Of a stretch of DNA of 64,000 nt, positions 12,223 to 17,902 are shown one piece after another. Numbering within the stretch: position 1 is the stretch's first letter; every line of letters begins with the position of its first letter. The translations under genes and the position numbers were made by a program. The notes beneath the pieces were generated by a model. It did not search any database. It worked only from the letters and a program-made list of their open reading frames with translations, and was not told where the DNA came from. Origin of the DNA: Desulfonatronovibrio hydrogenovorans DSM 9292 (GTDB lineage: Bacteria > Desulfobacterota > Desulfovibrionia > Desulfovibrionales > Desulfonatronovibrionaceae); the NCBI RefSeq assembly GCF_000686525.1, contig NZ_JMKT01000010.1:186001-250000 (forward strand), in the 5' to 3' direction.

Positions 12223-12365
12223 CGAGCCCGAAGATGTGGTCCGCCTCTGGCCATTGTACCTGGTTTGTTTTTTCTTGACTGACCAGTTTGCAATAATCCC
12301 TTGTTTTTCTGAAATCATCGGACTAAATTGCAGCCCATGGTGTGCAGCTCACGATTGTGCCGGTC

Positions 12366-13475
12366 ATGAAAAAAGCTGTTGCCTCATGTTCGGATGGTCC
12401 ATATGAGAAATTTTTGATCCAGATTCCTGAAAAACAATATTTTTTCCAAGGCCTGCCATTTTATTTAAATACTGAGACCATGCTCACTCAAACAAGCTCT
12501 CCTGCAATGCAGGAAGTCTTTCAAAAGGCGAATTTGGTAGCCCCGACCAGCACCACTGTCCTGCTTACCGGTGAAACCGGAGTAGGCAAAAGCAGCCTGG
12601 CCAGGTACATCCACAACCGCTCCACCCGGAAAGACCACCCTTTTGCCGCCATAAACTGTGGGGCCATACCAGAAAACCTCATTGAGAGTGAGCTGTTCGG
12701 CCATGAAAAAGGAGCCTTTACCGGCGCCATCAACAGAAAGGCGGGTAAATTTGAACTTGCTGACCAGGGCACAGTGTTCCTTGATGAAGTTGGCTCCCTG
12801 AGCCAGAACGCTCAGGTCAAGCTTCTTTCCTTTATGCAGGACCGCACTTTCCAGAGAGTGGGGGGTACCAAGGACATCCATGTCCAGGTGCGGATCATTG
12901 CCGCGACCAATGCCGATTTAAAAAGTCTGGGTCAGCAAGACAAATTCAGACAGGACCTGATGTACAGGTTGAATGTATTCCCCATTGAAATCCCTCCCTT
13001 AAGGGAAAGAACTCAGGACATCCCAGCCATTGCCCGGGACATCTTTGTGAGGCTGAAACCTGGTTTTCCCGGTCCGGTCCAGGAGATATCCAGAGAAGTG
13101 ATCCAGGCCTTCATGGATTATTCCTGGCCTGGAAACGTGCGTGAACTGGAGAATCTTATTGAACGGGCCTTTATCCTGGAAAGTTCTGAGCTTTTGACTC
13201 CCATGAGCTTCCCCCCGGAACTGTTTGTTCACCAGGCCGGAAATGAGACTGAATATATCAATATCGACCTGCCCCTGTCCGAAGTCAGAAGAATCCACCT
13301 GGAGGCAATTGAAAAACAGTACCTCCAGCAACTGCTGATCAAAAACAAGGGTAGGATAAGGAATGCAGCCCGCCAGGCCGGCATCGGCGAAAGGCAGCTC
13401 AACAAGCTCATGGGCAAATATGGTCTTAAAACCAGAGAGTTCAAACCTTGCTCCGCCCAAAACATCGACAATTAA
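12366..13475 (+). CDS. sigma54-dependent transcriptional activator without sensor domain
   Basis: The product activates RNA polymerase with sigma54. The AAA+ domain has Walker A GETGVGKS, the sigma54-contact loop GAFTGA, Walker B GTVFLDEVG and the RLNVFPIEIPPLRER motif. The C-terminal helix-turn-helix (RIRNAARQAGIGERQLNKLMGKYG) is Fis-like. Only about 45 residues precede the AAA+ domain, so there is no receiver, GAF or PAS domain; activity may be constitutive or controlled by another protein. The start is uncertain (GTG 12342, ATG 12366 or ATG 12480; no clear ribosome binding site). The next gene downstream, after a 555-base gap, is the aminomutase operon, a possible target. Confidence 0.9.
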   Translation: MKKAVASCSDGPYEKFLIQIPEKQYFFQGLPFYLNTETMLTQTSSPAMQEVFQKANLVAPTSTTVLLTGETGVGKSSLARYIHNRSTRKDHPFAAINCGAIPENLIESELFGHEKGAFTGAINRKAGKFELADQGTVFLDEVGSLSQNAQVKLLSFMQDRTFQRVGGTKDIHVQVRIIAATNADLKSLGQQDKFRQDLMYRLNVFPIEIPPLRERTQDIPAIARDIFVRLKPGFPGPVQEISREVIQAFMDYSWPGNVRELENLIERAFILESSELLTPMSFPPELFVHQAGNETEYINIDLPLSEVRRIHLEAIEKQYLQQLLIKNKGRIRNAARQAGIGERQLNKLMGKYGLKTREFKPCSAQNIDN

Positions 13476-14030
13476 AAACCAGCTGGTCCGACCCCAGGCC
13501 CCGGGATAATTAATTGCGAAAAATTTGCCTGTCCTGGGCGGAATGAAAAAACCGGTATCAGCGGTTCTGTTTTTATAATACCTGGAACCCTTGATTCTGG
13601 TTTTCCATCTGCAGCCAAGCCACTCTTTCCCTATCCAGCCCTCTTTTTTCAGTAGCCGCGGTCTTAAACAACTCTGGCTTCAACTCCGACTTATGCCCAT
13701 TTCCTTTAATAAAGACACCTGATCCACTGTTTCATGGCAATCAGCCAGAAAATAAACACCTAACCCGAAAGTAACCGGCAAACCCCAGGGTACATCACCA
13801 GCAGACTCCGGCTGGGTCAGGCAGCAACTTTCCGGCTGACCAGACCAAGTATAACCCCTTAAGAAAAACAGAATTTCCAGGACTGACTTTCATCAGGCTA
13901 AGAAACTCTTCTTGCTGTTTTCATTTGCTTTTTTTAACGGCACAGATCTTGATTAACAGCTTTTCAACAGGTGAAAACGTAATCAGGCCCCAAAAAACAT
14001 AAGCCATTAAAACAGAAAAAGGATCTTATC
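13476..14030 (+). other. 555-base intergenic region ahead of the aminomutase operon
   Basis: No convincing open frame is present on either strand and no RNA gene was recognised. The only structured element I could see is the inverted repeat at 13961-13977. AAAAAGGA precedes the ATG of the aminomutase gene. A GG-N10-GC pair at 13599-13612 loosely resembles a sigma54 promoter but is too weak to annotate. Confidence 0.5.
13961..13977. promoter_or_regulatory. inverted repeat TTTTCA-N5-TGAAAA upstream of the aminomutase operon
   Basis: A perfect 6-base inverted repeat with a 5-base centre lies about 55 bases before the start codon of the aminomutase gene. Its position and symmetry fit an operator for a dimeric regulator, but a repeat of this size can occur by chance. 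No regulator can be assigned. Confidence 0.25.
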
Positions 14031-15347
14031 ATGGATAAACTCGAACAGATTGAAGTTGAAACTGAGCCTCCTTCTGAGGACCCTCCGGCCGCCTATGACC
14101 TTGGATTCAGGGCTGAATCACTGTTCCATCCGACTATCCGCACCATTTCCCATTCTAGCCATAATATTTTTGAATTCAGCCCTCAGGAATTCAGGAGGAC
14201 TCACTACAAAAGAGTTTCTGATAGAGACTGGAATGACTGGAAATGGCAGGTGCAAAACAGAATAACCAGATTTCCGGATCTTGAAAAAATCCTGCCTCTC
14301 TCGGGGCAGGAGCTCCAGGCCGGATCAGGACAGGACCTGCTTCCCATGTCCATAACTCCATACTATTTAAGTCTCATCCATCCATTTGATCCTGATGATC
14401 CCATACGCAAGTGCGTTGTTCCTACTGGGCTTGAATTTAAAAAAGGGCTGGGAGAAGAGAATGACCCCCTGCATGAAGACAGGGACAGCCCGGTTCCAGG
14501 CATTGTGCACAGATACCCGGACCGGGTGCTCTTTCTGGCAACTGGATTCTGTTCCACCTACTGCCGGTACTGCACCCGGTCCAGGATGGTCGGACACGAC
14601 TCCCTGGGCCACCCTGAAAAATGGATCAAGGCTATTGACTACGTTAAAAACAATCCTCTGGTACGTGATGTGCTCATATCTGGCGGTGATCCACTGACCA
14701 TGGGCGATGATCAGCTGCAATACATTCTGGAAAAACTCAGAGCCATCCGCCATGTGGAAATAATCCGGATAGGGACAAAGGTACCGGCAGTCCTGCCTCA
14801 AAGAATCACCAGATCTCTGTGCAAGATGTTGAAAAAGTTTCATCCCCTTTTCCTCAGCCTGCATTTTACCCATCCCAGGGAGATGACAGAACAGGCTGCT
14901 CAGGCCTGCAGCCGACTGGCCGATGCCGGGATACCCCTGGGCAGCCAGACTGTTCTTTTAAAGGGTATTAACGACCAGACATCCATCCTGAAAAACCTAT
15001 ATCATAAACTCTTAGTTGCTAGGGTAAGGCCTTACTATCTCTACCAGTGCGACCCTATACCTGGTTCCAACCACTTCAGAACAACCATTGAAAAAGGAAA
15101 GGAAATGATCCAGGGACTCAGGGGGCATACTTCGGGCTATGCCGTGCCCCAATATGTTATTGATCTTCCGGGAGGGGGAGGAAAAACCCCGGTTCTACCC
15201 GGGTATTATCAAGGCCGGACCAGCACCGGCCTGGTATTCAAAAATTTTGAGAACAGGCACTATGTTTACCCGGATCAATCCATGGCTGAAAACCAGGCAG
15301 GAATGAACCTGGTGGCCCCTGAAAACATCGCCGGAGGAGCACAATGA
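14031..15347 (+). CDS. lysine 2,3-aminomutase-like radical SAM enzyme
   Basis: A PLP- and SAM-dependent aminomutase of the KamA family, expected to move the alpha-amino group of an amino acid to the beta carbon. The radical SAM cluster motif CX3CX2C is at residues 174, 178 and 181 (CSTYCRYC). Lys385 in PGGGGKTP matches the PLP lysine of clostridial lysine 2,3-aminomutase (K337 there). Asp341 (YQCDP) and Asp378 (VIDLPGGGGK) keep the spacing of the two aspartates that hold the lysine side-chain amino group, which argues for L-lysine to beta-lysine rather than glutamate. AAAAAGGA precedes the ATG. The stop overlaps the next start (ATGA). The 438-residue length is slightly above KamA because of a longer N-terminus. 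Confidence 0.88.
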   Translation: MDKLEQIEVETEPPSEDPPAAYDLGFRAESLFHPTIRTISHSSHNIFEFSPQEFRRTHYKRVSDRDWNDWKWQVQNRITRFPDLEKILPLSGQELQAGSGQDLLPMSITPYYLSLIHPFDPDDPIRKCVVPTGLEFKKGLGEENDPLHEDRDSPVPGIVHRYPDRVLFLATGFCSTYCRYCTRSRMVGHDSLGHPEKWIKAIDYVKNNPLVRDVLISGGDPLTMGDDQLQYILEKLRAIRHVEIIRIGTKVPAVLPQRITRSLCKMLKKFHPLFLSLHFTHPREMTEQAAQACSRLADAGIPLGSQTVLLKGINDQTSILKNLYHKLLVARVRPYYLYQCDPIPGSNHFRTTIEKGKEMIQGLRGHTSGYAVPQYVIDLPGGGGKTPVLPGYYQGRTSTGLVFKNFENRHYVYPDQSMAENQAGMNLVAPENIAGGAQ

Positions 15348-16420
15348 ACATTGGATTAACTTATGATCTGCGCCAGGACTATCTTGCTGCAGGCTTTACC
15401 ATGGAGCAGACCGCAGAACTGGACAAGCCGGAAACCATCGACGGAATCGAAAATGCCCTGACCGGCCTTGGTTTTGAGGTGACCAGAATCGGCAGTGCCC
15501 GGAATCTTGCCCGGCTTCTGGACAAAGGAAAGAGATGGGACATGGTCTTTAATATTTGTGAGGGCATGTTCGGGTCGGGAAGGGAATCCCTTGTGCCCTG
15601 CCTGCTCGATTATTACCAGATACCATACGTTTTTTCCGACCCAGCGGTACTGGCTCTGTGTCTGGACAAAGGACGCTCCAAGCAGATTGTCAGGGACATG
15701 AACCTGCCTACTGGCTGGTTTCAGGTAATTGGATCTGTGTCCGACCTTAAGCAAATAGAGCCTGTGTTTCCGGCATTTGTCAAACCTGCGGCTGAAGGAA
15801 CAGGAAAGGGCATTGACCAGAAATCAGTGGTCCATGATCCTTGGGAATTACTGTCTGTCTGCACCGACCTTTTTACCCGGTTCAATCAGCCTTTACTCAT
15901 TGAGGAATTCCTGCCTGGCACAGAAGTAACTGTAGGCATAGTAGGGTCAAAGGACTGGGCTGAGCCTGTGGCAACCATGGAATTGGTGTTCAGAGATGAA
16001 AACATTTACTCATGTTCAGTCAAGGAAAATTACCTGGAAAAAGTACAGTACAGGCTGGTCCTTGGAGATCTAAAAAACCAGGCCGAAGACCTGGCTCTGA
16101 AAATCTGGCAGGGACTGGGCTGCATGGACGGAGGAAGAGTTGATCTTCGTCAGGACCAAAATGGCTGCATGACCTTTATTGAAGTCAATCCCCTGGCTGG
16201 ACTGAACCCTGTTCATTCAGACCTGCCTATCTTGAGCCGCCTGGCCGGATGGAGTTATGATGATCTCATTAAGACCATCATGGACTCCGCCCTTAGACGA
16301 TCCGGCCTCAAGCTGCCTGAAAAGACGGGTAGCTGGCAGAAGCCGGATAACAGGTCCCTTAATCCCCTCCCAGAAACAGAAAGTTCCCCCAGGTCCTTGG
16401 TACAGCAAAAATGCAGCTGA
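15344..16420 (+). CDS. D-Ala-D-Ala ligase-like ATP-grasp enzyme (first of two)
   Basis: A cytoplasmic ATP-grasp ligase related to D-alanine-D-alanine ligase, which joins a carboxylate to an amine with ATP. The N-terminal preATP-grasp part has FNICEGMFGSGRESLVPCLLD, with the grasp domain from about residue 105 (LDKGRSKQIVRDMNLPTGW) and the ATP-binding PAFVKPAAEGTGKGI. The metal-binding FIEVNPLAGLNP lies near residue 280. Residues after about 320 are a polar tail. It is 4 bases inside the aminomutase gene and overlaps the next ligase by 10 bases. A cell-wall Ddl role is unlikely: two copies sit side by side with a radical SAM enzyme, away from mur genes. The substrate is inferred to be beta-lysine or a product of it. 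Confidence 0.85.
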   Translation: MNIGLTYDLRQDYLAAGFTMEQTAELDKPETIDGIENALTGLGFEVTRIGSARNLARLLDKGKRWDMVFNICEGMFGSGRESLVPCLLDYYQIPYVFSDPAVLALCLDKGRSKQIVRDMNLPTGWFQVIGSVSDLKQIEPVFPAFVKPAAEGTGKGIDQKSVVHDPWELLSVCTDLFTRFNQPLLIEEFLPGTEVTVGIVGSKDWAEPVATMELVFRDENIYSCSVKENYLEKVQYRLVLGDLKNQAEDLALKIWQGLGCMDGGRVDLRQDQNGCMTFIEVNPLAGLNPVHSDLPILSRLAGWSYDDLIKTIMDSALRRSGLKLPEKTGSWQKPDNRSLNPLPETESSPRSLVQQKCS

Positions 16421-17406
16421 TCGTACTTACCTCGTCTTTTTCTTCCAGGGCCCGTTCGGACCAGGCAGACAACCTGGTCCAGGCGGGCATGGTTGTGGAA
16501 GCTTTGACCAGCCTCGGCCATGAGGTAAGCATGATCTCAGCGACCCTGGACATGGAAAGTCTGAGCAGGCAGCTCAGCATGCTCAATCCTGGCCTGGTCT
16601 TTAATCTTGTAGAAGAAATCAATGGCAGAGGAAACTTTATTCATTTTGCTCCAGCTGTTCTGGAAAGCATGAACATACCCTTCACAGGCAACGGTCATTC
16701 AGCCATGGTAACCACCTCGGACAAGCTTCTGGCCAAAAAAGTAATGCTTGCCCATCATATCCTGACCCCTCACTGGCTGACTGCTGAAGAGGTGGATCAA
16801 AACAAGTCCATAAAAGGAGGAGCATTGGTCAAGTCGGCCTGGGAACACGGATCTTTTGGCCTGGAAACATCATGTGTATTCAAGGACTTTTCAAAGGATA
16901 AGATCGAAAAACAGATCAAAAAGTTAAGAAAAAGGCATGGCGGGGTCTGGTTTGTTGAAAAATACGTGCCAGGAAGGGAGATTAATGTTTCCATTCTGGA
17001 TAAACCTGACGGCCCAGTGATCCTCCCGGTAGCTGAGATTGTGTTTTCTGATCAGTCTCTGAAAACAGCCCGTATCGTCGGTTATAAAGCCAAATGGAAT
17101 CCCGGCTCAAAAGAAGAGCAATGCCTAAGCCGGGAATTCATTTCGGGCAAAGAAAACCAGAAACTCATCCGTCAGGTATCGGATATTGCGCTGCACTGTT
17201 GGGAAGTATTTGAAATGTCTGGATATGCCAGGGTTGACTTCCGGGTTGACTCAAAGGGAATTCCTCTGGTTCTGGAGATAAACGCCAACCCCTGTCTGTC
17301 CCCTGATGCCGGGTTCATGGCTGCTGCCCAGGAAGCCGGATTCAGCCCGGACCAGGTCATCCAGTGCATAGTTCAGTCAGGGTTGGCCAGGTATGGCCGT
17401 GAATAA
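16411..17406 (+). CDS. D-Ala-D-Ala ligase-like ATP-grasp enzyme (second of two)
   Basis: A second ATP-grasp ligase, clearly different from the first, so the pair is not a recent duplication. The preATP-grasp domain has FNLVEEINGRGNFIHFAPAV and MNIPFTGNGHSAM. The grasp domain starts near residue 105 (TSDKLLAKKVMLAHH) and contains GALVKSAWEHGSFGL and FVEKYVPGREINVSI. The metal site is VLEINANPCLSP near 290. It overlaps the first ligase by 10 bases and the acetyltransferase by 14. Two non-identical ligases in one operon suggest two successive amide bonds, or one enzyme making the bond in a second building block. Function beyond ATP-dependent ligation is not known. Confidence 0.85.
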   Translation: MQLIVLTSSFSSRARSDQADNLVQAGMVVEALTSLGHEVSMISATLDMESLSRQLSMLNPGLVFNLVEEINGRGNFIHFAPAVLESMNIPFTGNGHSAMVTTSDKLLAKKVMLAHHILTPHWLTAEEVDQNKSIKGGALVKSAWEHGSFGLETSCVFKDFSKDKIEKQIKKLRKRHGGVWFVEKYVPGREINVSILDKPDGPVILPVAEIVFSDQSLKTARIVGYKAKWNPGSKEEQCLSREFISGKENQKLIRQVSDIALHCWEVFEMSGYARVDFRVDSKGIPLVLEINANPCLSPDAGFMAAAQEAGFSPDQVIQCIVQSGLARYGRE

Positions 17407-17902
17407 TATAACCATCGATGATCATGTGGACTGTTCACTTCCGGATCAAATCCAAGATCTCCTGGTCTCCACAGGAACTTTCAGCCGGGAAGAAATCAGG
17501 GTTGCCAAAGAGCTGATCCGGGAATGCCTTGAAAAGGGTAACAAAAAATCTGGTTATCACTTTCTTCTGGCCAAAGACACTCTGAATAACCTGGCCGGGT
17601 ACACCTGCTTCGGTCCTGTTCCCTTTACCCGCTCAGGCTTTGATCTCTACTGGATGGCCGTTCGTCGGGAGTTTCAGGGGGCAGGCCTGGGCAGAAAGCT
17701 GTACCTGGCTACGGAACAGGCTGTAAAAAAGATGAACGGAAACATGATCTATGTTGAGACCTCAGGCAGGCAAGAGTACCATCCAGCCAGACTGTTCTAC
17801 CAGCAGATGGGATTCAGTCTGAACTGCACTCTGGTGGACTTTTATGCCCCTGGGGATCACAAGCTGATCTACTCAAAACAGGTCTTGAGCGCATTAATCT
17901 AG
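17393..17902 (+). CDS. GNAT family N-acetyltransferase
   Basis: A 169-residue acetyl-CoA-dependent N-acetyltransferase. The acetyl-CoA pyrophosphate loop is REFQGAGLGRKLY near residues 95-107, preceded by the strand DLYWMAV and followed by YHPARLFYQQMGF, typical of the GNAT C-terminus. It starts 14 bases inside the second ligase gene and is the last gene of the operon. In known N-acetyl-beta-lysine synthesis (AblA/AblB) a GNAT enzyme acetylates the product of lysine 2,3-aminomutase; here two ligases stand between the two steps, so the acceptor may be a peptide-like conjugate. That is inference. Confidence 0.85.
   Translation: MAVNNITIDDHVDCSLPDQIQDLLVSTGTFSREEIRVAKELIRECLEKGNKKSGYHFLLAKDTLNNLAGYTCFGPVPFTRSGFDLYWMAVRREFQGAGLGRKLYLATEQAVKKMNGNMIYVETSGRQEYHPARLFYQQMGFSLNCTLVDFYAPGDHKLIYSKQVLSALI

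Follow-up and report, generated by a model that had tools for sequence, protein, structure and literature searches.

A four-gene operon of Desulfonatronovibrio hydrogenovorans as a candidate pathway to acetylated β-lysine amides

Introduction

What does a bacterium make with a radical aminomutase, two ATP-grasp ligases and an acetyltransferase that are encoded as one unit? The question arises from a four-gene operon in a stretch of 64,000 nucleotides from the salt-loving sulfate reducer Desulfonatronovibrio hydrogenovorans DSM 9292 (contig NZ_JMKT01000010.1, positions 186,001 to 250,000), here called the window; coordinates without a prefix refer to it. A preliminary description had proposed an acetylated β-lysine peptide, perhaps an osmolyte, as the product and had stated that no characterised system with this gene set was known. 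The latter holds for the literature searched: within a search that had few subscription papers or preprints within reach, no description of the operon or its gene set was found. Every enzyme family concerned is already known; what is new is the pathway alone. With moderate confidence, we take the product to be an intracellular, reversibly acetylated amide of β-lysine, either polyamine-like or a peptide.

The operon and its distribution

The four reading frames lie on the forward strand and overlap by 4, 10 and 14 bp, as the preliminary description had it. The first (14031–15347, 438 amino acids) encodes KamA, a lysine 2,3-aminomutase-type enzyme of the radical S-adenosylmethionine (SAM)/pyridoxal phosphate (PLP) kind; in Pfam and NCBIfam scans it is composed of Radical_SAM and the start of LAM_C. 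It is followed by two putative amide ligases of the ATP-grasp type and D-Ala-D-Ala ligase (Ddl) fold, GraspA (15344–16420, 358 amino acids) and GraspB (16411–17406, 331 amino acids), which both match Dala_Dala_lig_C (PF07478) and are 25% identical to each other. The last gene (17393–17902, 169 amino acids) codes for a GNAT N-acetyltransferase (PF00583 and PF13508). The enzyme types that had been named at the outset, two distinct Ddl-like ligases included, are thus confirmed by the domain scans.

Complete and in this order, the set is present in 17 of 20 loci that were taken from the same genus, family and taxonomic order; the other three are ended by contig ends or fused (L046). When GTDB was scanned with a profile of GraspA, at least 571 relatives came up, and neighbourhoods were taken from the best 80 loci. 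Among these, 53 contain all four genes, in the same order in every one, and 72 have KamA and GraspA at one locus; the rest are mostly due to contig ends, fusions or a missing gene (reduced forms). The records, mostly metagenome-assembled genomes with taxon names as deposited, are named Bacteroidota, Thermodesulfobacteriota, Acidobacteriota, Aminicenantes, Spirochaetales, Planctomycetota, WOR-3, Sumerlaeota, Proteobacteria, Bacillota and others. The four-gene pathway is kept across about ten bacterial phyla, and the set is far beyond a chance neighbourhood. The search for co-occurrence that had been called for in the preliminary description therefore came out in its favour. Fusions tie the genes together further: GraspB is fused to the GNAT in four genomes (L046, L078, L118, L127) and GraspA to GraspB in another (L107), and a related double ligase occurs in L187.

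In a phylum-wide sample of 297 genomes, a close GraspA (E ≤ 1e-110) was found in 62 and any GraspA homologue in 109. Among 247 genomes of Bacteroidota, searched at E 1e-90, only the centre genome gave a match, which means that the operon is patchy and rare there. The plasmid neighbourhoods of KamA in Deinococcus, Rhizobium, Thioflavicoccus and Leptospira lack the four-gene set. On the Thioflavicoccus plasmid (L033:7091–11437, reverse strand), KamA lies beside a Ddl-like ligase of the opposite strand, an ornithine cyclodeaminase, SbnA and a diaminobutyrate transaminase; these genes make up another kind of small-molecule cluster.

A β-lysine-containing secondary metabolite or antibiotic that is secreted comes to mind, as KamA-type mutases also accompany ATP-dependent ligases in blasticidin-type clusters (L197). 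Across the phyla, however, no exporter, regulator or resistance gene consistently adjoins the operon, no recurrent transporter was seen beside it in the loci examined, and the wide and slowly varying distribution is unlike that of a typical antibiotic cluster. We consider this explanation improbable. An anti-phage defence system was dropped, because neither the four operon proteins nor the deacetylase fusion described below matched any PADLOC model.

A lysine-type aminomutase

KamA passes TIGR00238 with 346.9 bits (cut-off 199.2). It stays under the curated cut-offs of the AblA model TIGR03820 (463.2 bits against 525.4) and of TIGR03821 (255.6 bits against 369.3), the model of EpmB, which serves in β-lysylation of elongation factor P (EF-P). 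Its closest solved structure is 2a5h (470 bits). The CxxxCxxC motif, the substrate arginine, both aspartates that bind the ε-amino group and the PLP lysine are invariant in all of the 70 operon KamAs. The roles of the substrate arginine, the aspartates and the PLP lysine are assigned after the lysine aminomutase structure 2a5h. The arginine 2,3-aminomutase BlsG differs at these positions; its second aspartate is absent. The C-terminal cysteine tail motif of AblA is found in none of the 70. In a quick tree that contains long branches, the operon KamAs form one group apart from AblA with 99% support in the SH-aLRT branch test, L104 and L057 falling outside. The lysine aminomutase-like residues noticed at first reading have thus proved to be invariant determinants of the lysine type, and KamA appears to be a subfamily of its own that would convert L-lysine to L-β-lysine.

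The genome holds a third KamA-like protein (L148:3054–4127, reverse strand; G000:C12). It adjoins a glutamine synthetase, has Glu and Ala at the positions of the ε-amino aspartates and stays under every curated cut-off except that of the KamA subfamily.

The two ligases

Neither GraspA nor GraspB reaches the cut-off of any curated Ddl model. Their AlphaFold2 models (mean predicted local distance difference test, pLDDT, 89 and 92, respectively) find Ddl as best Foldseek matches, for GraspA at 22–24% identity. The comparison of residues was made with E. coli DdlB as the reference, after a check of its known residue numbers. The equivalents of Lys97, Lys144, Glu180, Glu187, Lys215, Arg255, Asp257, Glu270 and Asn272, i.e., the ATP/Mg residues, are invariant in both ligases. 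The substrate side differs. At Ser150, Tyr216 and Ser281-Leu282 of Ddl, GraspA has Thr, Glu and Ser-Asp, and GraspB has Gly/Ala, Trp and Ala/Ser-Gly; the Glu is found in most GraspA sequences and the Asp is invariant. In GraspB, Gly276 is also changed to Cys. A true Ddl (150.5 bits) is encoded separately in the same genome (G000:C9).

These findings support the view that GraspA and GraspB are catalytically intact ATP-grasp ligases other than D-Ala-D-Ala ligases. The latter identity had been named from the start as one that would speak against a pathway from lysine; the changed specificity residues and the separate Ddl dispose of it, and a cell-wall Ddl locus is ruled out on the same grounds.

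A related thought is the modification of a macromolecule, i.e., that β-lysine or a β-lysyl peptide is put on peptidoglycan, lipid or protein. A precedent exists in EF-P, which is β-lysylated by EpmA and EpmB (PMC2821294). The Ddl fold of both ligases could be quoted in favour, as could a Mur ligase gene that overlaps the operon end in L068. Yet both ligases have Ddl folds of the small-substrate kind, and no macromolecule-acting gene is a consistent neighbour, the Mur ligase being confined to one examined locus. We therefore judge such a modification to be quite unlikely.

The acetyltransferase and the osmolyte question

The closest solved structure to the operon GNAT is 2r7h, a "putative D-alanine N-acetyltransferase" (114.8 bits). 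The protein does not match TIGR03827 (AblB), nor does it show BLAST similarity to the AblB of its own genome. This AblB belongs to a canonical ablA-ablB pair (L147:2607–4863, reverse strand; G000:C11), the genes of which overlap by 35 bases and score 749.6 bits for AblA (cut-off 525.4) and 321.8 bits for AblB (cut-off 205.1). The genome should thus produce Nε-acetyl-β-lysine by this predicted pair, independently of the window operon. With a separate ablA-ablB and a true Ddl present in the genome, the operon can be taken neither for the Nε-acetyl-β-lysine pathway nor for a cell-wall Ddl locus. An osmolyte by analogy to ablAB was dropped as the leading reading because of the separate ablA-ablB. 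A side finding in this family is a 716-residue protein of Ilyobacter (L196:2935–5085, forward strand), which looks like an AblA-AblB fusion and is annotated solely as lysine 2,3-aminomutase.

The operon might still be a duplicate of the Nε-acetyl-β-lysine pathway, with the osmolyte made by KamA and the GNAT and with ligases that have an unrelated task; the lysine-type KamA and the presence of a GNAT speak for it. Apart from the unrelatedness of the GNAT to AblB at BLAST level and the location of AblA and AblB elsewhere, the ligases speak against it, since other genomes have them as fusions with the GNAT and with one another, and so do some operon-like loci that keep KamA and GraspA without a GNAT. 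We give it very little chance of being right.

A different osmolyte, an acetylated β-lysine di- or tripeptide serving as compatible solute, deserves more attention. Its model is N-acetylglutaminylglutamine amide (NAGGN), which is made by a GNAT and an ATP-grasp ligase. NAGGN synthesis uses an acetyltransferase-ligase fusion, and the GraspB-GNAT fusions resemble it. The genus, moreover, is haloalkaliphilic or halophilic (PMC4158274, PMC3346931). On the other hand, AblA and AblB are already at hand in the genome, a bulk solute would not call for a deacetylase partner (see below), and the families scored include no match to a NAGGN model. By their record titles, relatives were sampled not only from saline sites but also from freshwater, aquifers and digesters, so that the osmolyte role of the preliminary description is left without specific support. 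A compatible solute of this kind is unlikely.

A deacetylase as fifth partner

A protein of about 580–600 amino acids, in which a GNAT is fused to a histone-deacetylase fold, is encoded within the operon, at a length of about 583 residues, in 16 of the 80 best GTDB loci. It takes one of three positions there, ahead of GraspA, between GraspB and the GNAT, or behind the GNAT, and in two genomes (L156, L161) it is fused with the operon GNAT to give GNAT-deacetylase-GNAT. The source genome contains an unlinked orthologue of 599 amino acids (G000:C8:184626–186425; L146:2127–3926, forward strand). The deacetylase domain scores 250.5 bits with PF00850, and its best solved structures are acetylpolyamine amidohydrolases (1e-68). 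In the phylum sample, a GraspA homologue occurs in 27 of the 28 holders of the fusion versus 109 of 297 genomes overall (Fisher p 3.5e-12, which ignores shared ancestry); in about ten of the 28 the two genes are within a few kb on one contig. The fusion is absent from most operon genomes and hence an accessory partner.

Polyamine genes

In L191, KamA, GraspA and GraspB are followed by the GNAT-deacetylase and by a GNAT that is fused to an agmatinase (220.9 bits against a cut-off of 174.3). A related ligase pair, often with a GNAT, adjoins a pyruvoyl-dependent arginine decarboxylase in at least nine loci (L157, L164, L173–L178, L180). Most of these also have an agmatinase and/or a deoxyhypusine-synthase homologue, and KamA is absent from the fetched stretch. 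The ligase pair in such clusters is apparently a second undescribed system. A third, RimK-like ligase accompanies KamA in L186 and is also present in L164. We infer two sister systems with related ligases and different amine sources. In KamA-type operons themselves, polyamine genes amount to one deoxyhypusine-synthase-like gene 0.5 kb upstream (L058) and one distant agmatinase (L063), so that the linkage is weak there, L191 apart.

Two further loci (L158:4530–8905, forward strand; L171:3446–7826, reverse strand) combine an XRE-cupin-type regulator, a protein of 736 amino acids and a GNAT with an unassigned N-terminal part of about 290 residues. The 736-residue protein ends in a GraspA-like ligase; its N-terminal 400 residues have no Pfam match.

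What the operon may make

The reading that we prefer, an intracellular and reversibly acetylated β-lysine amide, would work as follows. KamA would turn L-lysine into L-β-lysine. GraspA and GraspB would each activate a carboxylate with ATP as acyl phosphate, and two successive amide bonds would join β-lysine to amine-bearing partners, which might be an amino acid or a diamine, for example putrescine or agmatine. A free amine of the β-lysine conjugate would then receive an acetyl group from the GNAT. Where present, as in many genomes including the source genome, the GNAT-deacetylase would remove or reset the acetyl group, and reversible acetylation could serve as a protecting group or as an on/off switch. 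That the ligases add amide bonds and that the product is an acetylated β-lysine compound had already been suggested; the intact ligases and the lysine-type KamA speak for this part, and the osmolyte role finds no specific support.

Of course, several points weigh against this scheme. Its substrates and product are proposals, and the specificity of ATP-grasp enzymes is not readable from sequence. The polyamine link comes from a related ligase pair that is mostly free of KamA and belongs to few families of one phylum, plus one GNAT-agmatinase fusion. Among operon genomes without a copy in the operon, the GNAT-deacetylase was found elsewhere in eight of 35 tested, one of them a partial match. Finally, two loci (L101, L126) have KamA and GraspA without GraspB and GNAT alongside.

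A broader idea is tentative and, in our view, rather doubtful. The two sister systems may both make conjugates of β-lysine or polyamines whose acetylation is reversible, a class that would be widespread and so far undescribed. One type of ligase pair would draw its amines from KamA (β-lysine) or from arginine decarboxylase and agmatinase (putrescine), and the GNAT and the deacetylase of the acetylpolyamine-amidohydrolase type would form the acetyl switch.

A compact unit that keeps one order across many phyla, with a recurring deacetylase partner, points to a real, unrecognised small molecule in mostly anaerobic bacteria. Its members are currently misnamed as lysine 2,3-aminomutase, D-Ala-D-Ala ligase and D-alanine N-acetyltransferase; hundreds of genome annotations would be corrected.

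Regulation and neighbouring genes

Upstream of the operon, a gene on the same strand (12342–13475; PF00158) encodes a σ54-dependent activator with an AAA+ domain and a weak Fis-type helix-turn-helix, the likely regulator of the operon. Ten further long loci of the taxonomic order carry a close homologue (52–76% identity) next to the operon; nine have it on the operon strand, and in L039 it is divergent. This activator probably turns on the adjacent operon in Desulfovibrionales.

A candidate binding site is the dyad ACCGGTATCAGCGGTTCTG (13551–13569, forward strand), which is shared with congeners and has a second repeat at 13581. The motif ACCGGWAYCNNNNGTTCTG is intergenic in the window and has two intergenic copies in each of three congeners (L036, L037, L038). 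The window site is the sole exact match to the derived motif in the 2.9-Mb genome; the window expectation is 0.09 at ≤2 mismatches. A candidate −24/−12 box, CGGCACAGATCTTGAT (13938–13953, forward strand), is weak and not significant alone (p 0.13). In the window and in six relatives, such boxes stand 42–93 bp ahead of KamA; they are significant in L042, L043 and L044. A σ54 consensus search over the whole window gave fewer matches than chance, and the weight is therefore on the positional comparison among relatives only. σ70 promoters and terminators showed no excess over shuffles. Downstream of the operon lies a convergent gene that looks like a shikimate kinase.

The activator, the linked GNAT-deacetylase and the polyamine context had not been mentioned in the preliminary description. 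Its gene set, enzyme types and co-occurrence stand, as does its novelty within the literature searched; its background of Nε-acetyl-β-lysine as osmolyte is no longer the natural reading.

Comparison with known systems

The synthesis of NAGGN, as generally known, resembles the operon in that an acetyltransferase and an ATP-grasp enzyme are fused or adjacent, but its ligase is of another subfamily and the window operon has KamA. Among the loci examined, no neighbour like a glutamine amidotransferase or asparagine synthase was noticed, though no dedicated search was made. The blasticidin-type cluster also has a radical aminomutase (BlsG) near an ATP-dependent carboxylate-amine ligase. It differs by the arginine-type residues of its mutase and by its nucleoside antibiotic genes, and neither GNAT nor deacetylase is among the genes shown.

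The ablA-ablB operon shares a lysine 2,3-aminomutase and a GNAT, and β-lysine would be the first product in both cases. In contrast to the window operon it has no ligases, and neither the KamA, with its lower score and missing cysteine tail, nor the GNAT is of the Abl type. With Ddl enzymes (DdlA/DdlB, VanA type) the operon ligases share the fold and all ATP/Mg-binding residues, whereas their identity to solved Ddl structures is about 20–25% and the substrate residues are changed. For the fifth partner, finally, the closest solved relatives of the deacetylase domain are acetylpolyamine amidohydrolases (PDB 9gkz, 3q9b); the partner differs from them by the GNAT domain in front and by being tied to the ligase system.

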